36,070 bases of DNA, taken from contig JAITVY010000055.1 in the NCBI GenBank assembly GCA_031285565.1, positions 1 to 36,070 of the forward strand. Reading direction: 5' to 3'. This stretch comes from Tannerella sp. Its GTDB lineage: Bacteria; Bacteroidota; Bacteroidia; Bacteroidales; Tannerellaceae. Under the pieces are notes generated by a model. It saw only the letters and a list, made by a program, of their open reading frames with translations, was not told the DNA's origin and made no database searches. Positions 5,021 through 33,370 of the stretch are shown here, piece after piece. Both the position numbers and the translations under genes were made by a program. Numbering within the stretch: position 1 is the stretch's first letter; each line of letters opens with the position of its first letter.

Positions 5021-7107
5021 TACTTCACCTCCATTAAAGTCACCCGCGAACGATCATAGCTATAATCAATTTCTTCATTGATCAGTATAAAATCCTTCCC
5101 CGGCAGGTTAGCATCTTCAATTAATTGATAAGGGACAAAACCTTCTTTTAAAATTTGAGTAGTCTGCATCTTGGCCGCTTGGTATTGATTTACTACCCGG
5201 TTCACAATTAATTCCTCCGGTTTCATTTCGGAATTTGTAATACGATTATGCAGTTTGTCCAAAATGACATTGTTATGTATGACTTTGCTATATGCAAGCC
5301 CTGAATCGTTACTGGATGTTATCTTCAATTCGATATCATCCAATGGGCTTACAAATTCTTCATTAACGACATTGGTGTACAACGTATCATTTTTCTGTCC
5401 GGACTCACTTTCACTTTGTGAGAATTTACAGCTTTGAAGTTTGATGTCTTTTATGAAAATGTATCTATGCAGATAACTATCCTGATCAGCTTTTGGGCAA
5501 TAAATGGTTAATTCTATATCTCCTATAATAGTTTGCTTATTAAACCAAACAATATGTCCGGATACATCCCCTAATTCGAGTAGATAATCATTCTGATTGC
5601 GCACATTTAACCAATCGTAAACATAATGTTGTGTTTTCTTTTTTAGGTCTGTATAGAGTTTGTAAACTTTTTTTTCTTTACTCCATTTGCCTTCGAAAGT
5701 CGTTCCATCATAATACCATTCTCCGATACGTAAACTTATAGGAATGTACCAACCATCCGGGCTGACAGAATCAATTGTGTCTTTATCAACATGCTTGATC
5801 CGAAATCCATCAGGCCTATCTGAGTAACAAACAGCAAAATTTAATATAATAGCCTGTTCGTTGCTGAATACGATGTTTTTTGTATTGAATCTTGTTTGAA
5901 GAAGAGGAAATGCATCATCCGAATAATAATCTAATAACAACTTGCCACGAATAATACTATTGTCTATTTCGCCATCATACAATTTTACTTGTACCATCGG
6001 TTCCCATTTGAGTTCGTTTGGCCGGTCATCACCCTCGAATTCTGTCATACGGATAATCTGTCCACCGGCTATTTTTTCTATTGTTGTTGGTGTTGACGGA
6101 ACGAAAGTTTGGTTGGTATAACGATATTGGAATATATCATAGTTTTTACTCCAGCATAGTTCTTTAAAATACCATTTATTCCCGTTTTTAAGGTTTTCCC
6201 AATAAACGCCCGAACTTCTAGAAATATCTTCAGATAAAGGAGGAAATAAATCTTCTGACTTTACCTCATAATCGCTACATACAACATTTACTTTGTTGTA
6301 GCCTGAAATAATATCAAGTGTGTGATTTTCACCTGCAACCCCCATGTCTAAGGCTGTTAAGTCTAATACGCTCTGTTTGTCGTTGCTAAGCGTCGTTTTT
6401 GATTCTGCAAAAGATGGATTATAAAAGAAGTATTCCGCAAACCCTTTCTTTATATAATCTATATCAATCAGATATAGGAATCCGTTCTTTTCTGTTAGTG
6501 TCCAGCAGTAGAACCGGCAGATTTCTTCTAAGATCTCTTTGTAAGTCATCCGTTCGTCATCTTCATCGATGAAGTTGTCTGAAGATATCATATGTTCTTT
6601 CATCACGTTTGTATTTGTGCCAAACGTACAAGGAACATACAACCCTTTATAATCACCTTCAGAGAGTGTAATAGCCTTTTTTACTAGATCAAACAAAGAA
6701 ACAATGATCGCATCCAGATCAAACTTTACATATTCAAGTGTTGACAGGGCAGAAATACATTCGATTTCAAACTCAAATAAATTGGTAGAGTAATCTTGTG
6801 AATAAACCTCCGGAGTGATAAAACCTGTCCAGATGATATCATTTTCACGTTTCAGGTTTACTTTATGTTTGCGTGCAGACGTGGAAAACAGGCTTTGTAG
6901 ATAATCGCTTCCGACTATTTTTAATGTTGCTCCGGATAACCTCAAAGGATTATACAAAAACTCTTCATCATCGGTATTGACTTCAAACACATCATCACCT
7001 CCATCTAACTCTTTTGATGAGCCGGTATAATCTTTTCGTAAAATTTCGACTTTATACGAAATGTTACTAAGACTTTTAAAGGGTATGGTGTAAAGTGTTC
7101 CGTACAT
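5020..7107 (-). CDS. Distal tail / tail-tip structural protein
   Basis: This 695-residue protein has its start (7107) sharing bases with the tape measure stop and its stop sharing bases with the next start, so the three genes are translationally coupled. The N-terminus (YTIPFKSLSNISYKVEI) and the motif WTGFITPEVYSQDY near residue 95 resemble Bacteroidales prophage tail-tip proteins in the position of Dit/Tal. A domain around residues 180-230 resembles the hub fold of baseplate proteins (inferred). No endopeptidase or lysozyme motif is visible. It probably forms the tail tip ring or hub joining tape measure and fibre. Confidence 0.7.
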   Translation of the reverse strand: MYGTLYTIPFKSLSNISYKVEILRKDYTGSSKELDGGDDVFEVNTDDEEFLYNPLRLSGATLKIVGSDYLQSLFSTSARKHKVNLKRENDIIWTGFITPEVYSQDYSTNLFEFEIECISALSTLEYVKFDLDAIIVSLFDLVKKAITLSEGDYKGLYVPCTFGTNTNVMKEHMISSDNFIDEDDERMTYKEILEEICRFYCWTLTEKNGFLYLIDIDYIKKGFAEYFFYNPSFAESKTTLSNDKQSVLDLTALDMGVAGENHTLDIISGYNKVNVVCSDYEVKSEDLFPPLSEDISRSSGVYWENLKNGNKWYFKELCWSKNYDIFQYRYTNQTFVPSTPTTIEKIAGGQIIRMTEFEGDDRPNELKWEPMVQVKLYDGEIDNSIIRGKLLLDYYSDDAFPLLQTRFNTKNIVFSNEQAIILNFAVCYSDRPDGFRIKHVDKDTIDSVSPDGWYIPISLRIGEWYYDGTTFEGKWSKEKKVYKLYTDLKKKTQHYVYDWLNVRNQNDYLLELGDVSGHIVWFNKQTIIGDIELTIYCPKADQDSYLHRYIFIKDIKLQSCKFSQSESESGQKNDTLYTNVVNEEFVSPLDDIELKITSSNDSGLAYSKVIHNNVILDKLHNRITNSEMKPEELIVNRVVNQYQAAKMQTTQILKEGFVPYQLIEDANLPGKDFILINEEIDYSYDRSRVTLMEVK

Positions 7108-10100
7108 TAGAAATGTCTCCTTTTTTTGTTATAATTCTTTCGTACACCTTCCAAATCTTTACCACGCAAACGCCATTCGACACGACCATATCCCTCGCCG
7201 TTTAGTTGACCTAACAAAGCCGATTGTTGCCGTTGGTTTAAGATTAGTTCCCCGGAATTTACCCGTGCCAGAAGCTTATCACCTGTTCGGGAATTTCCAC
7301 CCACAATACCACCGTTGGCAAACTTTGGCAAGCCTGCAAGTAAAGCAATTATACCTGCAACAGCAGCAATAGCGAGTGCAACCCCGACGATCGGCACCAT
7401 AGAAACTGATTTTGCCGCGCCAGAAGCTGCAGCCGCAGTATTGCCTAATACTGTACGACGGTTAGCGGAAGCCGTACTTTCAGATACAGCAGCATCAGTC
7501 GCGATCTGGGTACTGGCATTCGTTAACTTTTGAGCGGTAACAGCTGAATCAATAATTGCTTCCTGTCGCTTCGCAGCTGATAGCATGTTGACCATTTCAG
7601 TCATTTTCTTGATCATGTCTATGATCTCAATAAAAGCATCTACTGTACTGGTTAACGAATCCCAGACAGCCATGATCTTTTCCCATTCCGAAGCGTCCAC
7701 ATCGTTGAATACTACTGCCAGGTTGCTCCATGCATTTACAACTCGGTCAGCATCAGAGACCATACCTTTAATCCCATCATATGCTCCTCCGGCCAACTCT
7801 TTGCTGAAATCTTTGATAGCACGTTTGGCTTCTGCAATCTTCAAAGCCTTCTCCAAAGAAGTCGCTTTGCTCATTTCCTTTTCGACTTCTTTCAGTAAAC
7901 TTTTCGCGCTACCGGTTGCTGATACTTGTAAGGCATTATATTTTTCTTCGTTCGACAGATTTTTATTTCCAATTATTTCTGATGCAGACGAACGATAATC
8001 GTATTGTTTCGCTTTCGGTGTTGTAGACTGTTGTGCAGAAAGGGAATTATAGAATTTATTTGTATTAGCGTTAGCACCTAACAAAGATGCTGCCAAAAGC
8101 TTTGTGTTATCAATCAGTGAATTTAATTCTTCATTATACTTTTCTTCTGTTTTTAAACCTGCAGCACGTTGATTAGTTAATTCTTTAAACTTATTGTTAT
8201 AATCTTTTTGGATTTCGTCCAGTTTGGTTTGTTCGCGCAATTCATTAGCACGTTCATTCAGGGCATTTAGAAAATTACGATCTGCATCTGTGACAAGCTG
8301 CATCGCAGCAATTTCTTTTCGTGTAGATTCTGTTAAGTCATAAATTGCCTTATCCTGTTCTTCTTTTGTAATTATGCCTCTTTCGAACTGATTACTTAAC
8401 TCCTGTAGTTTGTCGCTGTATTGTTTTTCAGCTTCATAAGTAGCGGATGGATCAACGCCAGATTTTGCTTGTTGGAATGTCGGATTATTAGCAGCTTGTC
8501 CTGGCGTCAATAAACCGGATAAACTTTGAAAGGTTTCTTTGTTTAAATCACGAAGTTTTGAAGTATATTCTTTTTCGGATATAGCTTTATTTTGCAACAG
8601 GTTTGTTAATGCGGTCAATTGCTCCGCATACTTTTCTTCGGCTTTTTCCAGGTCTGTTTTCTTTGTATCTTTTGTAGGAAGAATCGGATCATCCGTAGTA
8701 GTTGGTGTATTCGTATCGGTATTTACGACTTTCAGTTCTAACCTGTTTAGCTCCGCGTTCGCTTTTTGCCAGACTGCATAATTCTGGTTGTATTCTTTGA
8801 GGTCACGGACAGACTGTGTATAATAAAACGGATTCTTTGAAAGAGTTGCGCTCTTAGTTAATGAAGTGCCTTTTTCTTCTTGTGTACTCCCACCATATTT
8901 GTTTAATATGGAACTCATTTGAGATTCAGCCTCCAACTTACTTTTTTGGAAGAATTCAATTGAAGCCATATCTTTTAATAATCCTATCCTCGTTTTTATG
9001 GCATCGTTGATATCCCCGTTGATCCCGAGTGTTTTTTGATCTATCGAGAATGATGTATTTAAAAGACCGTTTATCTGGTCAATTGCACCTTTCCGCTGTT
9101 CATAGGTATTATTTACGTTGATGGCAATTTGTTGAAGGCGTTGTAGTTTGTCTACTTCTGCAATGCTGTTTGCTACTCCGGCAGCTTCTCTTTTCCAGTC
9201 TGAAAAGATTGTTTTTATCCGTTTCGATTCCTGGTATACTTCATGTAAATATCCTCCTATTGAAGCCAGTACTGTAAATATTGCTGTAGGCAATGCAGCC
9301 ATCATTGCTGTTTTTATCGCTGTAGCCGCTTTCTGAAAGGCAAATTTGATTGATGTACTTGTTTTTTGTGCTTCCCAGGCTATTTTATCAAATTGTATCC
9401 CGGCTTCTTTTGCGGCACGTTTAGCGGCTACTAATGCAGCCCTTTCTGCTTTCGCGATTTCAATAATGATCCATTTGAACATTTTGCCAAGCGAAACGCC
9501 TGTAATAAACGCAATAAGTTGGGTTATTACCCTACGAATATTATTAGCAGCATATTCAACCAGTTTTGTTACATAATCAATAACTTGCTTATAGGCGCTT
9601 TGTACATTCGTACTTTTAGTAAATTCAGTAAAAGCGTTTTGCAGCCTGTTAAGTGACGTTTCAATATTGTCCGTGTCAATATTTGGAATCATTTCATCTA
9701 ATGCCTCTGCAAACTTCGGGAGGATGTCAGCAGACATTAATTGGCCTTTCTTCATCAGGCTATCCAGCCCTGCAACGGACACACCTGCAGCTTTCGCCAT
9801 GGCCTGTAAAGCAATTGGAAGTTTTTCACCCATCTGCAGGCGTAATTCTTCCGAACTGATCTTTCCTTTACTCATCATCTGCGACAAAGCAAGGAATACT
9901 CCATTACTCTCATCTGCACTTAAACTGAATGCGGTAGTTGCGCGTGATACGGATTCAAAGATTTTCCGTTGTTGCAACATACTCATACCAGCCTGTGAAG
10001 CAGATGCAGTAAAACGGGCAAAGTTTCCGGTCAGGGAATTTATCTCCATGCCGTACTTCTTTGACATATCCAATAAAAATCGCTGGCTATCGGCAAACTG

Positions 10101-10337
10101 TGCAGTACTGGCCGATACATTCTTTAATGCTGTAGTAACCCGGCTTGTTTCCCGTGCAGTGCTGATCAATCGACTAACGAAGTTAGTCAAACCTAATCCT
10201 CCGGCACCTAATGCAGCTGCGAATGTCAATACCTGCATTTGCAATGAACGTAATGCCGCTTTTGCCTGGTTGGTCCCTTTCTTAAAGTTTTCCGTCAGGA
10301 AATTAAGGGCTATTGAAAAGCTTAATTTTCCTGCCAT
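7107..10337 (-). CDS. Tail tape measure protein
   Basis: This 1076-residue protein is the longest in the tail module and sits in the standard place after the tail chaperone. Residues 1-230 carry the conserved tape-measure domain (NFKKGTNQAKAALRSL; MGEKLPIALQAMAKAAGVS). Residues 260-360 and about 970-1020 contain hydrophobic Ala-rich segments that could cross a membrane. The middle (about 560-800) is a heptad-like coiled coil with repeated E-K-Y units. The end (FANGGIVGGNSRTGDKLLARVNSGE region) is a signature of tape measures. The length suggests a tail of roughly 150-160 nm by the usual 1.5 angstrom per residue rule. The start at 10337 overlaps the chaperone stop by 16 bases. Confidence 0.93.
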   Translation of the reverse strand: MAGKLSFSIALNFLTENFKKGTNQAKAALRSLQMQVLTFAAALGAGGLGLTNFVSRLISTARETSRVTTALKNVSASTAQFADSQRFLLDMSKKYGMEINSLTGNFARFTASASQAGMSMLQQRKIFESVSRATTAFSLSADESNGVFLALSQMMSKGKISSEELRLQMGEKLPIALQAMAKAAGVSVAGLDSLMKKGQLMSADILPKFAEALDEMIPNIDTDNIETSLNRLQNAFTEFTKSTNVQSAYKQVIDYVTKLVEYAANNIRRVITQLIAFITGVSLGKMFKWIIIEIAKAERAALVAAKRAAKEAGIQFDKIAWEAQKTSTSIKFAFQKAATAIKTAMMAALPTAIFTVLASIGGYLHEVYQESKRIKTIFSDWKREAAGVANSIAEVDKLQRLQQIAINVNNTYEQRKGAIDQINGLLNTSFSIDQKTLGINGDINDAIKTRIGLLKDMASIEFFQKSKLEAESQMSSILNKYGGSTQEEKGTSLTKSATLSKNPFYYTQSVRDLKEYNQNYAVWQKANAELNRLELKVVNTDTNTPTTTDDPILPTKDTKKTDLEKAEEKYAEQLTALTNLLQNKAISEKEYTSKLRDLNKETFQSLSGLLTPGQAANNPTFQQAKSGVDPSATYEAEKQYSDKLQELSNQFERGIITKEEQDKAIYDLTESTRKEIAAMQLVTDADRNFLNALNERANELREQTKLDEIQKDYNNKFKELTNQRAAGLKTEEKYNEELNSLIDNTKLLAASLLGANANTNKFYNSLSAQQSTTPKAKQYDYRSSASEIIGNKNLSNEEKYNALQVSATGSAKSLLKEVEKEMSKATSLEKALKIAEAKRAIKDFSKELAGGAYDGIKGMVSDADRVVNAWSNLAVVFNDVDASEWEKIMAVWDSLTSTVDAFIEIIDMIKKMTEMVNMLSAAKRQEAIIDSAVTAQKLTNASTQIATDAAVSESTASANRRTVLGNTAAAASGAAKSVSMVPIVGVALAIAAVAGIIALLAGLPKFANGGIVGGNSRTGDKLLARVNSGELILNQRQQSALLGQLNGEGYGRVEWRLRGKDLEGVRKNYNKKRRHF

Positions 10338-17237: not shown

Positions 17238-18926
17238 TTATCTCCTCCTAAAATTATCAATAGTCTTTAATCCAGTATATTCCGGTTCTGGAGGGTTAGA
17301 CATATAACCACCAATGGCATTACCCATTGCAACAACTCCATCAATCTTTTCAATGGACCGCTTTTTGTCCAGCTTGATGTTATCATTCGGATCCCGATAG
17401 ATTACTACGTTCCGAAACATCCACCGGATCACTGGATTCTTCATCAGGTCAACGGTACCAGCAGTAACATCGGCTTCGATCCGCTTTGTAGGTTCTGACA
17501 TATTCTGAATGCCCTGGCTAAACTCATCCAGCAACGATGCAAAGCTTTCGTTTTTCTGCAATCCCTGTATTACACCGTGATAAGCCTTTGCCGGGTCGAA
17601 TGCAATGTTCTTCACATCATAGCGTAATAATATATTAGTCAAATCATCCGTGATATAGTCAATATCAATCACATCACCAGGTGTAACCATGATAAATCCA
17701 TCTTTAGCCCATTGCCGGTAATCTACCCGGTCTTCTTTCTGTAAAACCTTTCCTTCCGGAATCCAGAAAAACAACCGAAAAGCCGGTACTTCCAGATCAG
17801 GAAAATAAAGAGCCAGTGCATTAATATCCACGTGAGAAGCTAAATCCAATCCGGCATAACATATTTGTCCAAGTAACTCATCATCCGTGGTTCCATGATC
17901 ACACTTTAAAACCTTTTCATCCTGAATCCATACATCGGGTGCGTCTACCCACATATTTAGGTTTTTTGTTTTGAAGTTTACTTCTGTAGTGCTTCCCATA
18001 TTCAATGCTCGCCCAAACTCTTTGTCCAGATATTCCGGATAAACGGATATCCCATAGTTTGGATTTGCCTTACTCCATGTTTCCGGATTTTTCCAGTCAT
18101 CTTCTGTATCCGGACAATAAATTATAGCAAATGTGTTTTCTTCCTGAACGATTCCTTTCAGGATATTCACATAATGCCTACGCATCTGGTAATACGGCAA
18201 TGTCATATTGGCACCAGCCGTTGTGATGGAAAACACCAATGGATTCTTACGTGCTCCCATACCGGTAGTAATGAGGTTGTAAATCTCATCCGTTTGCCAG
18301 GCATGCATCTCATCACATATTCCACAATGCGGTGAAAGTCCGTCTTTATTTTTACTTTCCCGTGAAAGCGGCTGATAGCTGGATGCGGTTGACTCCATTG
18401 TAATAGAGTTGGAAAAGGTTTGTAACTCTGCACTTAATCCTTTTGATTGGCTAACCATGCTTTTCGCAGCACTCCAACATATCTTTGCTTGATCTTTATC
18501 GACTGCAGCACTGTATACTTCAGAACCCGCTTCACCATCAGCAACTAACATATACAAAGCTATTCCAGCTGCAAAGGTTGTTTTTCCATTTTTTCGGGCA
18601 ACTTCGACATTAGCATAATTGAAACGACGTCTGCCATCTTTCGTTTTCCAACCGAACACATTCCAAATAATGAAACACTGCCAGTCTTCCAGTTCAAATT
18701 CACGTCCAGCCCATTCACCTTTGTAGTGCCGGAGCATGGTAAAGAAAGCAAATACTAACTTAGCAGCTCTTTCATCAAAATAGAATCCCATTTCTGTAGC
18801 GTTCTCCATATCATGAAGATAGCGTTCAACAGCCAGACGCTCTAACTCACCGGCAACCCGCTCACCAGATATAACCCGCTCAACATATGATAACGCTTTG
18901 CGTTTGTATAATTCCGTTTTCTTCAT
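17238..18926 (-). CDS. terL: Terminase large subunit (TerL)
   Basis: This 562-residue ATPase-nuclease drives DNA packaging. The N-terminal ATPase has an adapted Walker A (ARKNGKTT, residues about 110-117) and Walker B GICDEMHAW (Asp-Glu at about 210-211). The C-terminal nuclease shows the RNase H-like acidic motifs YAGLDLASHVD (about 350-360), NIAFDPAKAY and KIDGVVAMGNA. It matches the HK97/P27-type terminases. The ATG overlaps the small subunit stop by 4 bases, so the two are coupled. Confidence 0.95.
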   Translation of the reverse strand: MKKTELYKRKALSYVERVISGERVAGELERLAVERYLHDMENATEMGFYFDERAAKLVFAFFTMLRHYKGEWAGREFELEDWQCFIIWNVFGWKTKDGRRRFNYANVEVARKNGKTTFAAGIALYMLVADGEAGSEVYSAAVDKDQAKICWSAAKSMVSQSKGLSAELQTFSNSITMESTASSYQPLSRESKNKDGLSPHCGICDEMHAWQTDEIYNLITTGMGARKNPLVFSITTAGANMTLPYYQMRRHYVNILKGIVQEENTFAIIYCPDTEDDWKNPETWSKANPNYGISVYPEYLDKEFGRALNMGSTTEVNFKTKNLNMWVDAPDVWIQDEKVLKCDHGTTDDELLGQICYAGLDLASHVDINALALYFPDLEVPAFRLFFWIPEGKVLQKEDRVDYRQWAKDGFIMVTPGDVIDIDYITDDLTNILLRYDVKNIAFDPAKAYHGVIQGLQKNESFASLLDEFSQGIQNMSEPTKRIEADVTAGTVDLMKNPVIRWMFRNVVIYRDPNDNIKLDKKRSIEKIDGVVAMGNAIGGYMSNPPEPEYTGLKTIDNFRRR

Positions 18927-19977: not shown

Positions 19978-20883
19978 TCAGAAGATATTATCCAATGCGC
20001 GTGCAGCGGGATTAATCAACCTCATTTCGTCTTCTACGCTCTTTAAATAGATTTCGGTAGTTTCAGTACTTCGATGCCCCAGCATAACCTGTACTTCTTT
20101 GATTGGTACTTGATTCAGAATCATTAATACCGCTGCTGTATGGCGTAAACTGTGAGCTGTGATTGTTTTTGAATACAATCCAGCGCTTTTAAGATGTTTC
20201 GTTACGATAACTCCAATTCCTTTTGCAGTAATCGGCTTTTCTCCATTGTATCCGTGGGACATAAAAACAGATTCACTTTCATCTTCAACTCCTCTGTATT
20301 GTAAATAATCAAAGACTGGATTAAGTATCTTTTCGGTTAAACCGATCCGTTTATTCCGGTCATTTGCGCCTTTACGTTGGATCATTGCATAACATCCTGA
20401 ATCATTTCGATGTATATCACAGACACGCAACCTTGATACTTCAACACATCGGAAACCAGATCTTAACATCAGGTTTATAATTGCAAAATCCCTCAAGCCT
20501 TTAATGCTACTTTGATCAATTGAATTCAGAAGATGTGTTACCTGAACAGCACTCAAATGACCTTTACGATAGCTACGTTCTTTACGCCTGACTCTAATAG
20601 CTGCGGCAATGTTCTCATGTTCTCCAATAGTTTCACACCAATCATAAAATAACCGCAATGTTGTCAATCGGGATTCAATTGTATTCTCTGATTTACATTG
20701 GTTTGTTAAATCATTTTTATAAGCCAGTATGTCAGCTCGTTTTAAAGCTTTAATATTACGTCCTGAACAAACCACCCATTTAGCAAAAGCATTCAGGTTT
20801 CGCCGGTATAAATCACGGCTGTTTGGTCTGATATCCAGATTATCAGTAAAGTCCTTGATTAATGTACTAAACGTTTGTCTCAT
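19978..20883 (-). CDS. Xer-like tyrosine recombinase in the packaging region
   Basis: This 301-residue protein has a SAM-like N-terminal domain (residues 1-95) and a tyrosine recombinase catalytic domain with all expected residues: Arg145 (RSGFRCVEV), Lys171 (QRKGAND), His244-x-x-Arg247 (HSLRHT), His270 (MLGHRS) and Tyr279 (TEIYLK). The size and the short N-terminal domain are XerC/D-like, unlike the larger integrase at the prophage end. It overlaps the HNH gene by 17 bases. Possible jobs are resolution of phage genome multimers, integration/excision, or local inversion. The dedicated integrase at 31,865 makes a second integration role less likely but does not rule it out. Confidence 0.9.
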   Translation of the reverse strand: MRQTFSTLIKDFTDNLDIRPNSRDLYRRNLNAFAKWVVCSGRNIKALKRADILAYKNDLTNQCKSENTIESRLTTLRLFYDWCETIGEHENIAAAIRVRRKERSYRKGHLSAVQVTHLLNSIDQSSIKGLRDFAIINLMLRSGFRCVEVSRLRVCDIHRNDSGCYAMIQRKGANDRNKRIGLTEKILNPVFDYLQYRGVEDESESVFMSHGYNGEKPITAKGIGVIVTKHLKSAGLYSKTITAHSLRHTAAVLMILNQVPIKEVQVMLGHRSTETTEIYLKSVEDEMRLINPAARALDNIF

Positions 20884-21452: not shown

Positions 21453-22304
21453 TCATTTTTTTACATAGAAAATTTCTCCGTTAATATCTTTTCGTTCGTA
21501 ATCTTTCCATTCCGCTTTACCGCTTGTTACTAAAAGACCAAATTCCTCATAAGTATATTGCTTTGTTGTCCTGTCGTTTATATTTTCATAATTGCCTTCG
21601 ATGATTTTTTGGAAATTGTTCGGTTTTATCATCCAGTCGAATGTTGCTACAAACCCGCGTTTGTTTTCTCCCTTTAAAAAATTGCTTTTTTTTGCTGCAT
21701 TAATCATGTCAATGAAAGATTGTTTCCCATGTTCCCGGATACGTGCAGAAATCATAATTTGCCGTTTTTCGGATATAGGATAACGTAATTCACCGAATAC
21801 TCCTTTTGTTTCATGATTAAAAAAACTAACCAAATCTTTATAGCTGATTGATTCCGGTTTCGTCCGTGAGCCTTGGCTCTTGGACATAGCATTATCTTCG
21901 TAAGAAGATATGCTTTTATTATTTAGTTTAGTTTGGTTTAGTTTATCTTTAGTAGTATCCAACCTCGTGCCAACCTCACAACTAACCTCGTTAGTAACCT
22001 CTGCACTAACCTCGTCAAAATTTGACGACCTTGTAATAATTTGATAGGTAACATTAGCATTACCCGCTTTACTGGTGAAAGTGATTAATCCGGATTGTTG
22101 TAAATGATTCCGAGCATTTTTTAGAGTATTAATTGACACATCCAAATCAGCACTGATACGGGCGTTATTACGTTTGAAAGGATTAGTCCAGCTACAGCGG
22201 TTGCATATTTCCAAAAGATGAAAATAAAGGGCTATCTCTGTTACACTAAACTGATGCAACTCATGTAATTGCCAAAATTTTTTAATTTGCTCGATGTAAT
22301 TCAT
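21453..22304 (-). CDS. Phage replication initiation protein (wHTH, O-like)
   Basis: This 283-residue protein begins with a winged-helix domain (ALYFHLLEICNRCSWTNPF, residues about 25-85; SINTLKNARNHLQQSGLI is the recognition helix and wing). A polar linker follows (about 95-150), then a DnaD/primosome-like C-terminal half. The pattern, length and place are those of Bacteroidota phage replisome organisers, which bind the origin and load host helicase. The linker region is encoded by five short repeats that look like origin iterons (separate entry), as in lambda O. The protein repeat EVSAEVTNEVSCEV results from this DNA repeat. Confidence 0.8.
   Translation of the reverse strand: MNYIEQIKKFWQLHELHQFSVTEIALYFHLLEICNRCSWTNPFKRNNARISADLDVSINTLKNARNHLQQSGLITFTSKAGNANVTYQIITRSSNFDEVSAEVTNEVSCEVGTRLDTTKDKLNQTKLNNKSISSYEDNAMSKSQGSRTKPESISYKDLVSFFNHETKGVFGELRYPISEKRQIMISARIREHGKQSFIDMINAAKKSNFLKGENKRGFVATFDWMIKPNNFQKIIEGNYENINDRTTKQYTYEEFGLLVTSGKAEWKDYERKDINGEIFYVKK
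21901..22013 (-). repeat. Iteron array and AT-rich segment: candidate origin of replication
   Basis: Five copies of AACCTC (GAGGTT on the coding strand) start at 21961, 21972, 21984, 21996 and 22008, spaced 11, 12, 12 and 12 bases. Most copies extend to AACCTCGT. Directly beside them, 21901-21960 is AT-rich with reiterated GTTTA words, a candidate unwinding element. Regular iterons next to an AT-rich tract inside the initiator gene is the layout of the lambda O-type origin. Function is inferred. Confidence 0.55.
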
Positions 22305-22331: not shown

Positions 22332-23174
22332 TTAAACAGCTTCAACCAGATCAAACAAAGAAGGAATCTCAACATTATTTTCAGCTGCTTTGCAGTATGA
22401 AACACCGTCAAGGAAATATGCCGGGTTCAATTCTATGCCTATTCCTTTTCTACCCTTCAGTATAGCACGATAAGGAACTGTCATTAAGCCCCCGAAAGGA
22501 TCCAGTACAACATCACCCGGATTGCTCATTTGCTCTATTACACGATCAACAATATCGAATTGGAGCGGGCATAAATGCATTTCTTTTCCTTTGCTCCATT
22601 GCACACTGTTCAATGTCCTCATACGGGTGATATCCGTCCAAACTTCATCACTCCAACTTTGCGGCTGTAAAAGCATAAACCCGGAAGGCAACTTCCCTCT
22701 TAATTCAAGTGTCTCAGCTATATTAACCACATATTCAAAGTTCCAGATTTCATTTAATGAGTATCGTTTAAATGCCTGGAAGATTTCTTTAGGTTCCATA
22801 CTAGCTAACTCTTCCGGTTTTATTGCCCGGTCGCCAGAACTACGTGTAAATCCGTGGGCATCCATTTGCCAACGCGCACGGCTGTATTTATCCTTTGATT
22901 TTACGACAGGAACATCAGCATAAGCTTTTGACCTGTCTGTAGCTGGTTTCCTGAAATACAACAAGTATTCCGGCATGCCAACTCCCATTTTCGTACCGTC
23001 TTTACATTGTTCCGTCCAGCCTAACCGGTAGGTTTGATTATTCTCACGTACTACATCTGTAACAATCGTTTTCATTCCCATGTAGGCAAAACCATGCTTT
23101 TTATAATGTGTTATGCAGTCAATATGGAAAGGATAAGTTTCCTGGCATCCCATTCCGGATAGCCCCATAGGCAC
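22332..23174 (-). pseudogene. DNA methyltransferase remnant lacking the N-terminal catalytic motif
   Basis: This 280-residue frame (GTG 23174, or ATG 23168) matches the C-terminal part of phage DNA N-methyltransferases. It has VVTDVVRENNQTYRLGW-like (TDVVRENNQTYRLGWTEQC), MGVGMPEYLLYFRKP, motif I VVLDPFGG (about residues 232-239) and KGRKGIGIELNPAYF. The family normally has an upstream (S/D)PP(F/Y) motif IV and often a helicase half; none is here. Codons still reading P-G-R-L-A-V-I-H-V-K-D-R, typical of the family, continue upstream of the start to an in-frame TAA and a hairpin, so the gene was cut off there. It probably does not methylate alone. The frame itself is intact and may still be translated. 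Confidence 0.7.
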
Positions 23175-23253: not shown

Positions 23254-23997
23254 TTACTGCTCAATAATCGCTATACCCGGGCACAATTCACTTATTGAAG
23301 TTATCTGTTCATTGATCACAGAATCGCGCATCTCTTCAATCATTTGGTTAGCTGCCGGGCTAAACAGTTGAAGAAATACATCACCTCCGTCAATTGTAGC
23401 ATAAGCTTCAACTTGTAAGGTAGTTGACTCAACGCCTTTGAATATTGGTATATTTAAAGTGAAAGCTTCCGGTAGATTACTGTTTACAACCTGTCCGTAT
23501 GACGCTTTCATACTTCCATTCTCTTTACTTTGGCGTTCCATATTTGCGTTTATGGTAGCATTGAAGTTTTTCAGGTCGGATACCAATTGCATGTTTTCAT
23601 CCCGGTTCGGAAAGAAAGAACGGTTCATTTTGAAGAATTGACCCAAAGCGGCAGGTTCCCAGGTCTTTTTGCTGTTAATGCCGAATTCTTCAAATTTCGG
23701 ATGAAGTTGTAAAATGCCTTTTACACTACCTTTTTGGTATTCATTATCTTCAGAAGTAATCAGTTCGATCGATAGTTTCTCACGATCTACCAAAATATGG
23801 CAGCGTTTAGGTTCGATCTGATCCGGATCGGATAATCGTTTTGATAGGAATTCCAAAGGAGCACCGATAACGCCCACAATTCCGACTTTCACGGGTGGTT
23901 TCGGATCCAGTATTTTCATAGCTGATCCTTCTCGGATAATAACTTCTGCTTTTGTAACTCCTTCGCCTAAGTTGACATACATTTTTTCGTTTTGCAT
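23254..23997 (-). CDS. Conserved phage protein of unknown function
   Basis: This 247-residue soluble protein has segments NLGEGVTKAEVIIREG, PPVKVGIVGVIGAPLEFLSKR and FFKMNRSFFPNRDENM, and ends SELCPGIAIIEQ. The length and its place in a recombination/replication block resemble DUF2303-type phage proteins, but I cannot show this from motifs. It heads a tight block of four genes (24,765 down to 23,254) with gaps under 6 bases. No catalytic residues stand out. Confidence 0.65.
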   Translation of the reverse strand: MQNEKMYVNLGEGVTKAEVIIREGSAMKILDPKPPVKVGIVGVIGAPLEFLSKRLSDPDQIEPKRCHILVDREKLSIELITSEDNEYQKGSVKGILQLHPKFEEFGINSKKTWEPAALGQFFKMNRSFFPNRDENMQLVSDLKNFNATINANMERQSKENGSMKASYGQVVNSNLPEAFTLNIPIFKGVESTTLQVEAYATIDGGDVFLQLFSPAANQMIEEMRDSVINEQITSISELCPGIAIIEQ

Positions 23998-24336: not shown

Positions 24337-24765
24337 TTAATTGTTAGTACCTGTTCTGTTCATTTGAAAAATGTTTGTTTGCAGTTCACCTGGATAAGTA
24401 GGACGGCTTTCAATCAGGTCTCCATCACCATTGTAATATCCTACTTCCCGGCTGTCTACATCCACAAACTTGAAACATTTTTCAGTTATATATTCAGCTT
24501 TGTTTTTCAACCCGCTCAATAACCTTTTACGTTCATCAGACAAAGGATCAATCCGCGCTTTGAAGTCTTTCATTGCTTCTTTTTTCTCATCTTCAATGTC
24601 ATTGATTTGGATACATGTTTCAGAAAGGTTTTCTTTCATTTGTGCAAGCTGGTCAGAAGAGAACCTCTTCATGTAGCCTTTTTCTTCGATCTTATCACAG
24701 TTGCTTGATAAGAAGTCAATACGAGCCTGACCGGCTTCGACGCTTTTTCCAATTTCTTTTTCCAT
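24337..24765 (-). CDS. Coiled-coil early protein of unknown function
   Basis: This 142-residue protein is mostly one charged coiled coil (residues about 15-95; QMKENLSETCIQINDIEDEK...) followed by a short beta part with VDSREVGYYNGDGDLIESRP and a Thr/Asn-rich end. Proteins with a helical first half and this closing domain occur in Bacteroidota phage early operons. No motif points to a nuclease. A recombination accessory is possible. Confidence 0.55.
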   Translation of the reverse strand: MEKEIGKSVEAGQARIDFLSSNCDKIEEKGYMKRFSSDQLAQMKENLSETCIQINDIEDEKKEAMKDFKARIDPLSDERKRLLSGLKNKAEYITEKCFKFVDVDSREVGYYNGDGDLIESRPTYPGELQTNIFQMNRTGTNN

Positions 24766-24789: not shown

Positions 24790-25074
24790 CTATGTGAAGT
24801 AATAAGTTTTGTTATTTCCTGATCCGAACTTTTGTTGCTTGATTACCGTTGCAAAAGGGAAGTCTGATTTTGGGATACGATCTAATGCTTCTTTGATGGG
24901 AACTGCATTAGTAAAGAACTTGCATTCTAAACCTTCATGTAATATCTTTACGATATACCGGTTTTCTCCATGTTGCGTTTTGATACCTGCTTCGTAATCC
25001 AATACCTCTATTTCACAATTGATAATGTCTGTTATTGAAGTAATAGGCACCTGGAAGATATTGCGATCACTCAT
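24790..25074 (-). CDS. Small early protein following the reverse transcriptase
   Basis: I chose the ATG at 25074 (MSDRNIFQVPITSIT), 4 bases after the reverse transcriptase stop; a start at 25107 would overlap it. The 94-residue protein is beta-rich, with QHGENRYIVKI, LECKFFTNAVPIKEALDRI and FPFATVIKQQKFGSG. It lacks the helical-bundle make-up of DGR accessory (Avd) proteins, so it is not an obvious Avd. The compact beta composition would fit a single-strand DNA-binding or similar fold (speculative). Confidence 0.55.
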   Translation of the reverse strand: MSDRNIFQVPITSITDIINCEIEVLDYEAGIKTQHGENRYIVKILHEGLECKFFTNAVPIKEALDRIPKSDFPFATVIKQQKFGSGNNKTYYFT

Positions 25075-25078
25075 TGTA

Positions 25079-26077
25079 TCAATCCCAAAGTCCGAGAATC
25101 GTTTCATTTTGAATAATCTTTTTGATTAAGTGTCTTGAATTACAATGTTTCGCCCATCCGAGATAAGAACATATACTTTGTACATAATCCTTATACGGCA
25201 TTTCCTTTTTATTAATAAGTGCAACTTTCCTACAAAAATTTTTCTTGATTGATTTACGTAGATAGACATGGGTGTGATAAAATACATATCCGACAAAATC
25301 TATTCCACGTGATTCGACTGGAAAAATTTGCTCATTTCCTTTCAGATCAAGATTCAGGTTATCTTTTAAATACATCCTAATCTTATTTAATAAATCGTGT
25401 AAATGAGGCTTATTATCAGACAGTATTACAATATCATCAGCATACCGATAGTAATAACTTATTCCTTTTGATTCTTTCATCCAGTGGTCGAAATATGATA
25501 GATATAAGTTTGCCATATATTGGCTCAAATAATTACCGATCGGAAGACCTGGAGCGGAATCAATAATACCATCCAACAAACGAAGCAACTGTACATCTTT
25601 TATCTTCTTTCGGATGATATTTTTCAATATATCATGATCAATAGAAGGATAGAATTTTTTGACATCTATTTTTAAACAATACACAGTATTATTTTCATTT
25701 TTCAAATCACGTTTAATGTGTTTCAGAGCACCGTGTACACCTTTATTTTTTATACATGAGTATGTGTGGGAGATAAAGATGGATGTCCAAATTGGCTCTA
25801 ACACATTCATGATTGCATGATGAACGACACGATCCTTAAATGGTAACCGATATATTTGGCGTTCTTTTGGATCATGAATCATAAACACGCTATATTCAGA
25901 TGTTTTATATGATTCGTTTGTAAGTTCGCTTTGTATTTGCATCATATTCTCATTCAGATTTTTCTCAAACGACTTGACAGACTTTGCTTTCACTTTACCT
26001 TTCCGGGCTTTTTCGTAAGCCAGGCATAGATTATCCATATTGGATATCTTTTGATATAAATTACCATATCGTTTCAT
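25079..26077 (-). CDS. DGR reverse transcriptase
   Basis: I chose the ATG at 26077 (MKRYGNLYQKISNMDNLCLA), which matches the usual start of DGR reverse transcriptases; the open frame continues upstream through the template repeat but only with a TTG. The 332-residue enzyme has motif A KIDVKKFYPSI (Asp about 138), the DGR-type motif 4 GLPIGNYLSQ (about 177-186, with SQ in place of the group II intron QG), and motif C YADD (212-215). IDFVGYVFY is motif E. It copies the template repeat RNA with errors at adenines, and the cDNA replaces the variable repeats. It is 3' of the template repeat and both target genes, on the same strand. Confidence 0.95.
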   Translation of the reverse strand: MKRYGNLYQKISNMDNLCLAYEKARKGKVKAKSVKSFEKNLNENMMQIQSELTNESYKTSEYSVFMIHDPKERQIYRLPFKDRVVHHAIMNVLEPIWTSIFISHTYSCIKNKGVHGALKHIKRDLKNENNTVYCLKIDVKKFYPSIDHDILKNIIRKKIKDVQLLRLLDGIIDSAPGLPIGNYLSQYMANLYLSYFDHWMKESKGISYYYRYADDIVILSDNKPHLHDLLNKIRMYLKDNLNLDLKGNEQIFPVESRGIDFVGYVFYHTHVYLRKSIKKNFCRKVALINKKEMPYKDYVQSICSYLGWAKHCNSRHLIKKIIQNETILGLWD

Positions 26078-26185
26078 AAGCCTTTGTTTCGTATCGGAGC
26101 GTTCGGTTTCCCTACCAACACCTTTTGAAATGTTATTTTTTGCCAAGAGGCAAGGTCTTTGTCTTTTTAATTTTATTGAACATAG

Positions 26186-26258
26186 TCGGGAACCTGAACC
26201 TGCATTCGCATTGTCGTGATCGTAGTTCGAATTGTTGAACGCGAAGCCTGCAGGAGAC
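26186..26258 (-). repeat. DGR template repeat (TR)
   Basis: A 73-base repeat 109 bases upstream of the reverse transcriptase start. It is homologous to segments in the two genes upstream. Across 26187-26258 the coding strand has 17 adenines (T on the plus strand). VR1 differs at 12 of them and VR2 at 9, and no core base other than these adenines differs, apart from the final base of VR2's alignment. The template reads in frame as SPAGFAFNNSNYDHD then NANAGSGSRL: Asn/Tyr/His/Asp codons with A at positions 1 and 2 give the widest residue choice. Confidence 0.95.
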
Positions 26259-26288
26259 AGGAACAAAGACAAACAACCTGTTTTTCTT

Positions 26289-26669
26289 TTACTTCAATTG
26301 AACTTTTTCCCAGATTTCAGGAAATTGTTTTGCCGCATAATCAGCCATTTCTTCGCTGAAAAGTTTAAGGCGGGAACCCGAACCCGCACCCGCATTGCCG
26401 CGATCGCAGTCCGAACTGCCGAACGCGAAGCCCGCAGGAGACATATCAAACCATGGATACCATTTTCTTTCATCCGTATTGCCCCAATCAGGCTTTCTAC
26501 CCTCATTAAGTGCTTCTACAACTACAAGTGCATCATAATAAGCGGCAAAGTGATCTCTTAAATCTTCTGGTAAATTTGAAAAGTCAATTTCAGGTCTTCC
26601 TGTTGCTTCTCTTGCATCTTTAACTGTTTTGATGCGTTTCATAATTTCTTTTTCTTTGTTTGTTGCCAT
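26289..26669 (-). CDS. DGR target protein 1 (carries VR1)
   Basis: This 126-residue protein has a helical N-terminal half (TVKDAREATGRPEIDFSNLP; EALNEG near residue 55), then KWYPWFDM. The variable segment SPAGFAFGSSDCDRGN...GSGSRL follows (residues about 77-101), and a constant tail FSEEMADYAAKQFPEIWEKV. There is no signal peptide, no membrane helix and no sign of a tail fibre. The tail after the variable region is unlike classical targets (for example Mtd), where the variable repeat ends the protein. Similar 'W/Y-Y-P-W/Y-F ... GSRL ... YA-x-x-F' proteins are known as DGR targets in Bacteroidota phages, but their ligand is unknown. It is a paralogue of the next gene. Confidence 0.85.
   Translation of the reverse strand: MATNKEKEIMKRIKTVKDAREATGRPEIDFSNLPEDLRDHFAAYYDALVVVEALNEGRKPDWGNTDERKWYPWFDMSPAGFAFGSSDCDRGNAGAGSGSRLKLFSEEMADYAAKQFPEIWEKVQLK
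26370..26442 (-). repeat. DGR variable repeat 1 (VR1)
   Basis: Aligned with the TR over 72 core bases it has 12 substitutions, all at template adenines and all A to G on the coding strand (T to C on the plus strand). Five adenines are unchanged. The base at 26370 also differs from the TR, but both VRs share it, so it may be a fixed IMH/IMH* difference. The segment encodes residues about 77-100 of the 126-residue protein. Confidence 0.93.
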
Positions 26670-26692
26670 TTTGTTGTAAATTTTAGGGTTAG

Positions 26693-27172
26693 TTATTTTG
26701 TTAATAAATCGCGAAATTGATCCTTGAATATCTTTCCGGCATAAGCTGCCAGATCACCACTTATAAAAGAAAGGCGGGAACCAGAACCCGCACTCGCATA
26801 GTCGTGATCGCAGTCCGAATCGTAGAACGCGAAGCCAGCAGGAGAACCATTTGTTTCAAAATAGGGATAGTGGCGTGGCTTTTCTCTATTATATAGATCA
26901 AGTGTTTGTCTTTCATTAAGTGCTTCGGTAATAATCACTGCATTATACACCGATTTAAAATATTCCCGTAAGTCATCCGGAACATCATTAAATTCCGGTG
27001 TGATCGGTCGCCCGGTTTCTTCGAAGCAATCTTCAAGTGTTTTAATCCGGTCTTTCACATCTTGTTTTTCAAAAACGTCTTTACCATAAAGATCTTCAAG
27101 CAAAGCACGACCTTTTGTATCGGCTTTTCTCCACGCTTTGAGCGCATTTGTTTTTTCTACTTTTAGCGACAT
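26693..27172 (-). CDS. DGR target protein 2 (carries VR2)
   Basis: This 159-residue protein is a paralogue of target 1, with an extra N-terminal part (KTNALKAWRKADTKGRALLE). The shared core is KTLEDCFEETGRPITPEF..VPDDLREYFKSVYNAVIITEALNE. Then HYPYFETNGSPAGFAFYDSDCD and GSGSRL (variable), and the tail ISGDLAAYAGKIFKDQFRDL. It has no signal peptide or membrane segment. Two such targets in tandem, both fed by one template, suggest duplication. Codon use and operon position place it in early phage expression. The ligand is unknown. Confidence 0.85.
   Translation of the reverse strand: MSLKVEKTNALKAWRKADTKGRALLEDLYGKDVFEKQDVKDRIKTLEDCFEETGRPITPEFNDVPDDLREYFKSVYNAVIITEALNERQTLDLYNREKPRHYPYFETNGSPAGFAFYDSDCDHDYASAGSGSRLSFISGDLAAYAGKIFKDQFRDLLTK
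26774..26845 (-). repeat. DGR variable repeat 2 (VR2)
   Basis: Aligned with the TR it has 9 substitutions in the core, all at template adenines: five A to G and four A to T on the coding strand. Eight adenines are unchanged. The homology ends at 26845, one base short of VR1's. It encodes the variable part of the 159-residue target. Confidence 0.93.
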
Positions 27173-29483: not shown

Positions 29484-29489
29484 TTGCAT

Positions 29490-30639: not shown

Positions 30640-31799
30640 ATGAAAAAGTACCTATTCTTTATGTTAATGGCGATGCCATTTTTTTTAGCTCATGTAGTGA
30701 TGATGACGATGAAGGCACTAAACAACATGATATCGTATCAATTACTATTTCCAATAAGATAGAATCTATCATTATTGGTGAAACATATCAATTCAAAACC
30801 GAAATTTTGCCTAAAACGGCAATTGACACATACGTTGATTTTGTTTGGGAATCGTCAGATAGTAAAGTCGCAAATATAGATAAATTGGGGAATTTAAGCG
30901 CGAGAAACAAAGGGGAAGTGAAAATTACACTTACTGCTTATTATACAGATAGTAATAACATTCAGAAAGAAGTCACAGATGAAATTACAATTAAAGTGGT
31001 TCCTGCCAATTTAAAATCAATCAAATTCGACAAAGAATCTTTAGAAATCGTAAAAGGACAAGAAGCTACGCTTACAGTAACTTCCGATCCCTTAAATTCA
31101 GAGATAGGTGAATTAGAATGGCTATCTACTAATGAAAATATTGCAACAGTTTCAGATGGAGTAATAAAAGGCATAGACGTTGGTCAAACTACTATTGTAG
31201 TAACGGTTAAAGGAACAAATATATCTGCATCATGTAAAGTCGATATCACACCGGTTGAATTAATAAGTATAGAATTCAAAGAAAAAAATAAGACTTTGCT
31301 TATTAATGAAAAATTCCAAACAGAAATAATATTTAATCCGGATAATATTGAAAATAAAAAAGTGATTTATTCATCATCTGACAATAATATTGCTACTATT
31401 GATGAAAATGGTATTATAACTGCAATATCAAAAGGTTCTGCAACTATTACAGCAGTCTCGGAAGATGGAAATAAAACAGCTACATGCGATATTGATGTCC
31501 AGCATTTTACAGATAGGATATTTATGCTTAAATCCGGATCAATTGTTAGTATAAATGGATGGGTTACAGCAACTGCAAATATAACTTTACATAATAGTTC
31601 AGGGAAAACAATTTTTGTCAAAAAATTCAATGTTATAAGTAATGGAAACGAAGTATATAATCTTGATATAAATGAGAACCTTAATACATCACAAGAACTT
31701 ACAAGAGGAATAACTTATAACAATGTGTATATGCCTGTCTATAAATACACTTATTCAGTAGATGGAAAAGACTATGAAGTTGAAATCAACGGTTATTGA
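30640..31799 (+). pseudogene. Big_2-domain lipoprotein gene with a frame break in a T8 tract
   Basis: The ATG at 30640 opens a signal peptide (MKKYLFFMLMAMPFF). The frame shifts after the T8 tract at 30679-30686; the other frame reads SSCSDDDDEGTK, a perfect lipobox with the acidic export signal of Bacteroidota surface lipoproteins. Adding one T (T9) joins them. The remaining frame runs to 31799 with two clear Big_2-type Ig domains (VKGQEATLTVTSDPLNSEIG; NPDNIENKKVIYSSSDNN) and a third weaker one. A C-terminal domain of about 90 residues follows. If the shift is real the protein is off; if the tract slips it could be phase variable. A surface-exposed lipoprotein made by the lysogen is inferred. 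Confidence 0.75.
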
Positions 31800-31864: not shown

Positions 31865-33160
31865 TCAATCCATCGACCTACTAACCGCATCCTTTTGTAA
31901 TTGTTCCGGTCTGCGTCGATACCTATCAAAAGCTTTTGAATGCTCTGAATGTCCGGACATGCTGGCTACTACATGGATTGGTTCACCTGCCTGGCAAAGG
32001 ATATCCACAAATGTACGCCGTGCCAGATGCGAACTGGCTAACTCGTATAATTTATAAAACTTTTCTTTTTTCTCATCCCTGCTATATTGTATAACTGTAC
32101 GATCCAGTCCTGCAATGCGGAAAACGGTTTTTAGCTGTTCATTGTAATCCGTTGAATGTAAGAAGGGCATAATAAGGTTGTTTGGTCCGGTTTTCTTATA
32201 TTTTTTCATTATTTCTTTTGCCCGATTAGATAAGGGCACTACTACCTTATTTGCATATTCAGATGTTTTGGATGGATAGTATATCAATTGATCACTTTGA
32301 ATATTGTTATAGGTTAGCCGGACAAAATCGCTTACCCGGCATCCAAAAGCAGCTTGCAGGCAAAACATATCCCTGCAAAGTTCATCATCCTTATTTGGAT
32401 ATTTGGTGGTATATAATAGCGTTAGTTCTTCACGTGTCATACAAACGGGTTCTGCATATAGTTCGATGCCAAGTTTATCGGAGAATTTGAAATTATCAAA
32501 GGGGGTGGTTTCGAAGCATCTTATCTCATTTTTTGCAAAATTAAAGAAAGCCCTGATACGTTTTAAAATACATACTGCAGTATTTTCAGAAACAAGATCA
32601 CGCAGGAAAGATTTATATTCGACCGGATCGAAGTTCTTTTCAGTTAATGTTATATTCTTACGCTTAGCATATTCACGTAAACGTTTTAAGTCACTTCTAT
32701 AATGGCGTTTCCTATTCTCGGTAACCTTTGCTAAACGAATATATTCTTCATAAATATCAAACAACTCTTTCCCAGCTGGTATAGATATGGAATCTTCGTT
32801 TAGTTCAATCTGTAGTAACTGCCGGAATTCATCTTTGTCAAATAATTTTCCTGTCTGGCTACTATAATGCTTTTCATAAACTGTCTGTGCTGCATTTTCC
32901 AATTCCCGAAGGCGTGCATTAATCCGGCCAGCCGGTTCACCAGCTTTATTGAAAGTGTTTTTTTTAACCTGTTGAACCCGTACGGTTGAATTTTGCAGTT
33001 TTACAGTTTCTTTGATAAAGTTATCCGGATGCACCCGGAATTTTGAATAATAAAAAACTTCATTACCATCTAATGTGCAAACAAGGTGTATTTGTTTTTC
33101 TTCGCTGTTTTTGCCGGATGAAATAAGGCTGAATCTTGTTCTAAATTTATATCTTTGCAT
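31865..33160 (-). CDS. int: Prophage integrase (tyrosine recombinase)
   Basis: I chose the ATG at 33160 (MQRYKFRTRFSLIS), the usual start of Bacteroidales phage integrases; the frame continues to 33214 only with a non-conserved leader. The 431-residue protein has an N-terminal Arm-binding-like part, a SAM-like core-binding domain (ELFDIYEEYIRLAKVTENR), and a catalytic domain with Arg in AFGCRVSDFVRL, Lys in PSKTSEYANK, HLARRTF (His-x-x-Arg), and GHSEHSKAFDRYRR (His and the nucleophilic Tyr). Its place next to host sequence shows it drives integration at the right prophage end. Confidence 0.95.
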   Translation of the reverse strand: MQRYKFRTRFSLISSGKNSEEKQIHLVCTLDGNEVFYYSKFRVHPDNFIKETVKLQNSTVRVQQVKKNTFNKAGEPAGRINARLRELENAAQTVYEKHYSSQTGKLFDKDEFRQLLQIELNEDSISIPAGKELFDIYEEYIRLAKVTENRKRHYRSDLKRLREYAKRKNITLTEKNFDPVEYKSFLRDLVSENTAVCILKRIRAFFNFAKNEIRCFETTPFDNFKFSDKLGIELYAEPVCMTREELTLLYTTKYPNKDDELCRDMFCLQAAFGCRVSDFVRLTYNNIQSDQLIYYPSKTSEYANKVVVPLSNRAKEIMKKYKKTGPNNLIMPFLHSTDYNEQLKTVFRIAGLDRTVIQYSRDEKKEKFYKLYELASSHLARRTFVDILCQAGEPIHVVASMSGHSEHSKAFDRYRRRPEQLQKDAVSRSMD

Positions 33161-33173
33161 ATCAAAAATAAAC

Positions 33174-33199
33174 CTAAGTACTTTCGCAAATATACTTAG
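33174..33199 (-). promoter_or_regulatory. Inverted repeat and -7 element upstream of the integrase
   Basis: CTAAGTA (33174-33180) and TACTTAG (33193-33199) are 7-bp arms around 12 bases. The minus-strand TATATTTG (33187-33194) inside it fits the -7 consensus and lies 27 bases before the integrase ATG. No good -33 is seen. The pair could be a regulator or recombinase core site for int control or for the attachment site. Confidence 0.4.
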
Positions 33200-33370
33200 A
33201 TTTTTTGATAACATCCTATCTAATCAAATGTTTTTATATATACTCTAATACTACGTGATTATTGGTTGATTATTAATCGTATATCAAAATAAAACTCATA
33301 AGATTGTGATAATGAAAATGATGATAGATTGAATAAAATGATTCCTCCGAGGTCACTACTGAAAATAAAG

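Follow-up and report, generated by a model that had tools for sequence, protein, structure and literature searches.

A diversity-generating retroelement beside two tandem small early-region genes of a predicted prophage, and recurrence of this layout in related loci

The retroelement and its prophage setting

The stretch of DNA analysed here, 36,070 nt in all and referred to below as the window, holds a predicted prophage region of a probable Bacteroidales bacterium. Its tape measure, major tail, head, portal and terminase genes occupy 7.1-19.4 kb; replication and methyltransferase-like genes follow at 21.4-23.2 kb, and repressor and integrase genes lie further on (Table 1). Between 28000 and 19428, every ORF taken as a gene lies on the minus strand. 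Near the head of this early gene run, at a distance of 14.5 kb from the tape measure, stands a diversity-generating retroelement (DGR) whose order along the minus strand is target A, target B, template repeat (TR), RT-17 RNA, reverse transcriptase (RT) and a 105-aa gene overlapping the RT end, with a variable repeat (VR) inside each target. The window begins at base 1 of its contig, so tail genes past that edge may be absent. A second integrase-family gene (19978-20883, minus strand) lies beside HNH/terminase genes, and a 330-aa ORF with a TTG start (30807-31799, plus strand) adjoins the repressor gene, outside the structural module, and matches Ig-domain families (phrog_215 and others). Elsewhere in the same genome, further RVT_1 matches occur at G000:C49:90897-91409 and at G000:C3:26629-27067, the latter split into two pieces, of which one contains an internal stop.

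Table 1. Features of the window named in the text, in order of position.
Feature	Position	Strand	Annotation or detail
Tape measure gene	7107-10337		
Terminase	17238-18926		
DnaD-like replication gene	21453-22304		
Methyltransferase-like gene	22332-23174		
DUF2303-like early gene	23254..23997	-	
105-aa gene overlapping RT end, candidate DGR accessory	24790..25107	-	phrog_19665
DGR reverse transcriptase, 331 aa	25079..26074	-	Pfam RVT_1, phrog_1423
RT-17 RNA, spacer between TR and RT start	26074..26157	-	Rfam RF03020; 42.2 bits, gathering score 40.4
TR	26182..26259	-	
Target B, 126 aa, second of tandem pair	26289..26669	-	phrog_11581
VR in target B	26368..26443	-	13 differences from TR: 12 core, 1 at 3' edge
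Target A, 159 aa, first of tandem pair	26693..27172	-	phrog_11581, unknown function
VR in target A	26770..26845	-	11 differences from TR: 9 core, 2 at 3' edge
Divergent repressor gene	at 29484	+	
Integrase	31865-33214	-	

Membership of the cassette among the DGRs is well supported. The predicted RT carries the motifs PIGNYLSQ and YADD, and its matches to Brt of phage BPP-1 (34.7% identity over 311 aa) and to the solved RT 8ub7 (E 9.2e-52) place it with RTs of the DGR kind. It is also 38-57% identical to listed RTs from crAssphage and from cr* records, which we take to be crAss-like phages. One other reading of the RT gene, a translated TR fused to the RT, was rejected: the ORF 25079-26272 is in frame across the TR, but the homologous RT begins at 26074, and the TR-to-RT frame is open in only 5 of 46 related loci.

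All 24 differences between the TR and the two VRs fall at TR adenines and none elsewhere. Adenines make up 18/76 and 19/76 of the TR positions, and the chance of an adenine-only pattern is about 7e-9 and 2e-7. A preliminary description of this DNA had reported a complete DGR on one strand at 25.1-27.2 kb with RT, TR and two VRs in tandem small targets, together with 12 core differences in the 126-aa gene and 9 in the 159-aa gene, all at TR adenines; our analysis agrees on each of these points, and also on the conserved C-terminal tail that these early-region targets keep after the VR. The VR of target B shows 12 A to G changes and one A to C. Special chemistry as the source of this bias was considered and rejected: A to G accounts for 845 of 1,443 adenine changes among 101 unique short-repeat TR/VR pairs, a background from which a proportion of 12/13 is expected about once in 101 pairs. 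Variation in the TR codons is confined to nine residues (five AAY and four single-adenine codons), from which about 2e8 protein variants per target can be computed.

One-way homing goes with an IMH/IMH* mark, which should show as a constant difference between TR and VR at their 3' edges. Here the TR reads GGTTCCCGACTA and both window VRs read GGTTCCCGCCTT, a difference of the type expected. Within the available genome assembly, which is 83% complete, the core occurs exactly three times at up to three mismatches, and this, as far as the assembly reaches, answers the earlier worry that a third, tail-fibre VR might have gone unseen. Both window VRs are internal to early-region genes, and the cassette does not have the tail-fibre-targeting arrangement of the BPP-1 kind, in which a tail protein carries the VR at its C-terminal end. 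Nor was a further VR in a tail-module gene, as in the Quimbyvirus/LoVEphage kind, found in this 83%-complete genome, although one may have been lost beyond the contig edge at which the window begins.

Profile searches gave 484 homologues for target A, the best 120 of which are labelled 'hypothetical' or unlabelled bar one stray label, and 1802 for target B (best 120 listed). No hydrophobic stretch was found in either window target, with 19-residue maxima of 0.57 and 0.51, and no signal-peptide-like stretch; hydropathy exceeded 1.6 in one of 93 scanned target sequences. AlphaFold models built on 136- and 144-row alignments have a mean pLDDT of 85.2 and confident helices. The variable stretch is of low confidence (VR-block pLDDT 53-67 in the 126-aa protein and 53-56 in the 159-aa protein), and the C-type lectin fold was not recovered in these models with their low-confidence variable stretch, which are compatible with either the presence or the absence of a C-type lectin-like loop. 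Foldseek returned no match to the target models in the PDB at E<=0.001. Two uncharacterised BFVD entries, A0A8S5QTH9 from a crAss-like virus (E 2.8e-4) and A0A7M1S2L6 from phage cr128_1 (E 0.053), resemble the target A model, and may be further targets of the distal kind described below.

Recurrence of the layout and ongoing change in relatives

A TR/VR scan of 123 records, the window included, found pairs in 109 of them. A pair entered the scan only if adenine changes outnumbered other changes by four to one or more, which pushes the non-adenine counts of the scan downwards, and the freer test of adenine bias is the comparison of near-identical locus pairs. Setting aside the window, its own copies, L099 and L121, and collapsing identical TRs, we obtained 46 small-target and 22 large-target non-redundant loci, split at a repeat length of 100 nt. 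Small-target VRs are about 67-91 nt long and lie inside the gene, followed by about 21-28 residues, whereas large-target VRs span 112-145 nt and sit at or close to the C-terminal end of their targets, which measure 306-985 aa when truncated or misframed ones are disregarded. The small-target loci carry two VRs in 37 cases, three in 5 and one in 4; each of the four single VRs lies at most 406 nt from the locus start, a contig edge, and the 42 loci clear of such an edge all have two or three tandem targets of one protein family. All 93 VRs of the 46 loci fall inside target-family profile matches, the profiles having been built partly from these loci. The earlier suggestion of an under-described class is supported by a layout common to 46 non-redundant loci with every VR in one family.

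The small-target loci come from sources that include Dysgonomonas, Paludibacter, Muricauda, Galbibacter and Prolixibacteraceae. At the 3' edge the TR reads CTATG and the VR CTTT in 71 of the 93 VRs. The upstream target was poorly called by ORF picking in L023, L024, L025 and L084; in L023 and L025, which were kept among the 46, the upstream VR does fall in a target-family match. A hidden tail VR in the relatives was sought and rejected: 18 of 18 contigs, each covered to at least 91%, hold the TR and small-target VRs only, a count that omits G078, whose sequence covered only regions away from the cassette. Conversely, 7 of 7 large-target contigs hold the TR and one VR, so no distal early VR is present there. 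In a tree of 85 RT rows the small-target label needs 3 changes (bootstrap 2-4), and a single origin of the layout is compatible with this tree, from which the LoVEphage RT was omitted as too short and in which Versailles and BPP-1 form long branches of unsure placement.

Close relatives were compared in pairs. L130 and L131 differ at six positions over 5,094 nt, solely at TR adenines within VRs, with 0/4,934 differences outside. L065 and L066 differ at nine TR adenines and at no other VR position (12/2,861 outside), L016 and L018 at three TR adenines (0/5,438 outside), and the same adenine-type VR change separates L064 from L065 and L015 from L018. Among large-target loci, L037 and L107 show 13 differences at template adenines and 1/10,876 at other positions. 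Taken together, 12 VR-differing small-target pairs of at least 99% identity have 83 differences at TR adenines and 3 elsewhere, although these pairs overlap and are non-independent; across all 24 VR-differing small-target pairs, 18 of 253 VR differences lie off adenines, mostly in the less similar pairs. Such strongly adenine-biased VR divergence indicates that the cassette is active in close relatives. Active adenine mutagenesis, as first described for the window, is therefore supported in relatives (L130/L131, L065/L066 and L015/L018), while for the window's own prophage no close strain was found for VR comparison.

Not every pair varies. Out of 97 pairs, many of which are one contig taken twice, 69 show no difference at VR adenines; the 28 that do include 23 small-target pairs. 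The VRs of L010 and L012-L014 are identical despite 171-174/5,714 differences outside. The identical VRs in some near-identical groups would suit a relic, either a set of repeats in paralogues or an inactive DGR that has persisted by chance. We regard a relic as very improbable in view of the adenine-only differences in both window VRs, the presence of the RT motifs, the conserved gene after the RT and the adenine-biased divergence between close relatives.

Distal second targets, published systems and the gene after the RT

The target family occurs in 9 of 295 genomes of the order, the window's included, and G177 alone among the other eight has the window's layout. Elsewhere the family takes a different place: in 7 of 7 phages with a comparable TR and target, a DGR reaches it as a second target far from the RT. 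In four of these (G130, G336, G179 and G328) the RT lies about 35-38 kb away, and the TR matches a nearby long VR as well as the small-gene VR, the latter with 1, 0, 0 and 2 non-adenine differences, respectively; the viral record G093 shares this arrangement, with no non-adenine difference. The near target is unannotated in these five. In Bacteroides phage Versailles and in LoVEphage, by contrast, the first target is annotated as a tail protein. The Versailles TR, at 53832, has 11 adenine differences and no others from the tail-protein VR (first 107 nt), and 14 adenine differences and no others from the VR of an early homologue, WAK79127, 43 kb off. Homologues of the DUF2303-like gene and of the gene at 24337-24765 also follow the target homologue in Versailles. 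The LoVEphage TR (49383-49500) differs from a VR in the tail collar fibre at 13 adenines and one other position, and from the VR of QVQ57199, on the other strand, at 20 adenines, with four further differences beyond the first 110 nt.

Both of these homologues were tied to the window family by tblastn, and on sequence evidence the window targets belong to the same family as the LoVEphage and Versailles distal target. In a control run on 5 of the 7 phages, 40 shuffled TRs and the reversed TR scored at most 15, against 57-63 for the matches. G144 and G343 have the family and no matching RT at E 1e-10, G363 has only distant RTs, and the second target homologue of G179 gave no VR match. Three of four Versailles-like target records have no RT in the record, and so fall outside the distal-VR comparison.

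A second, non-structural DGR target in Bacteroides phages has been published (PMC8008677; PMC12629997): these sources describe a tail and a distal target in Quimbyvirus (Benler 2021, PMC8008677) and four prophage species with a distal second VR (Nature 2025, PMC12629997). One and the same B. dorei record is reported to align at about 95% with Quimbyvirus and with LoVEphage (PMC8525569), and multiple-VR cassettes are on record (PMC6642488). The resemblance is that one TR diversifies a non-structural protein, with QVQ57199 of LoVEphage in the window's target family. However, the RT and TR of Quimbyvirus and LoVEphage are described as lying in the tail module, where a tail-module protein is also diversified, whereas in the window they adjoin a tandem pair of early targets, and the search for a tail VR gave none. 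In the comparison with the double-VR gut prophages, as these are described in PMC12629997, the window side has a methyltransferase-like gene (Table 1). The novelty proposed in the preliminary description consequently stands for the layout class and falls for the principle; what differs from the published distal-target principle is that the RT and TR adjoin early targets in tandem and that a tail VR did not turn up. Searches of the open-access literature showed no paper on that arrangement, and supplements such as the Roux 2021 target clusters may list the family. The cassette resembles that of BPP-1 (NC_005357) in its homologous RT, in a TR just upstream of the RT and in adenine-specific change. 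BPP-1 diversifies the tail protein Mtd and encodes Avd, whereas the window cassette has its VRs within the coding sequences of small early proteins.

The gene after the RT is the remaining shared component. Iterated profile searches found a member of the 105-aa family 3' of the RT in 45 of the 46 small-target loci, counting a partial fused ORF in L093; the 46th, L022, is cut off 115 nt past the RT end. Large-target DGRs have RTs of the same group but long VRs at or near the C terminus; in 10 of their 22 loci a relative of this gene lies no more than 2.5 kb from the RT, and Versailles also has one. The family has no Pfam name (two stray single-member matches) and is unlike BPP-1 Avd or bbp4 by sequence, searches of the open-access literature showed no paper on it, and phmmer found no BPP-1 Avd-like ORF at E up to 1 among the 70-180-aa ORFs of the loci examined. 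We infer that the 105-aa protein is a candidate DGR accessory standing in for Avd.

A possible role for the paired targets

The target class is a variant of the known ones: non-structural as judged by position, tandem, early, and with an internal VR. Three functions may be considered for it. The small targets could be virion proteins, such as a decoration protein or adhesin, made out of place, in which case the DGR would still alter host attachment. This is what precedent might suggest, as Roux 2021 (PMC8144416) reports a tail-protein annotation for most viral targets in three DGR clades, and the Versailles homologue, itself annotated 'tail protein', draws on the same TR as a tail protein that adjoins the RT. 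The genomic setting makes a virion role unlikely nonetheless. Tape measures were found in 10 of 29 related records, and the cassette lies 8.8-29.3 kb from that gene in the seven in which it could be placed; small-target neighbours sent to Pfam include DnaG-type zinc-finger, MuB-like AAA, DUF4494 and LuxR-type genes, the first three of which argue for a non-virion setting; and the LoVEphage gene is on the strand opposite the tail module.

Alternatively, the targets might counter rival phages or work on the lysogen itself, the DGR tracking competitors in a form of exclusion. The phage has repressor and integrase genes, the two window VRs differ from each other, and two or three paralogues would broaden coverage. 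However, the window targets are without a signal-peptide-like stretch, and the target genes belong to a run heading away from the repressor, so that lysogenic expression is not implied. We consider exclusion improbable, to much the same degree as a virion role.

We lean, with modest confidence, towards a third function, in which an early-operon DGR rewrites two tandem small genes to give variants of an intracellular binder of host or defence factors. The TR would be copied into error-prone cDNA, the 105-aa protein taking the place of Avd, and then pasted into both genes, so that each would keep producing new versions of a single small binding protein of the cell interior. Both targets would do their work within the infected cell at an early stage; the variable patch would bind changing host factors, most likely defence proteins, and the two copies would widen the repertoire. 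The step to an intracellular binder is a weak one, drawn from position, from the absent hydrophobic stretches and from the counter-defence neighbourhood of distal targets as far as the published accounts describe it. Historically, a family that is elsewhere the distant second target of tail-hitting DGRs would here have come to lie beside the RT and TR, in a cassette without a tail VR. More tentatively still, the loci could represent a widespread class of Bacteroidota phage DGRs off the tail fibre, making paired, antibody-like early intracellular binders against variable host defences, with a new accessory in place of Avd.

If the intracellular-binder reading is true, phage targeted hypermutation would serve not just attachment but also the fast evolution of intracellular interactions, and the variable residues would point directly to the binding surface. 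The small targets in tandem, the distal second VRs known from prevalent gut phages and a conserved post-RT gene would then be joined in one testable system, and Versailles and LoVEphage, whose genomes are in GenBank, can be named as phages in which it could be tested.
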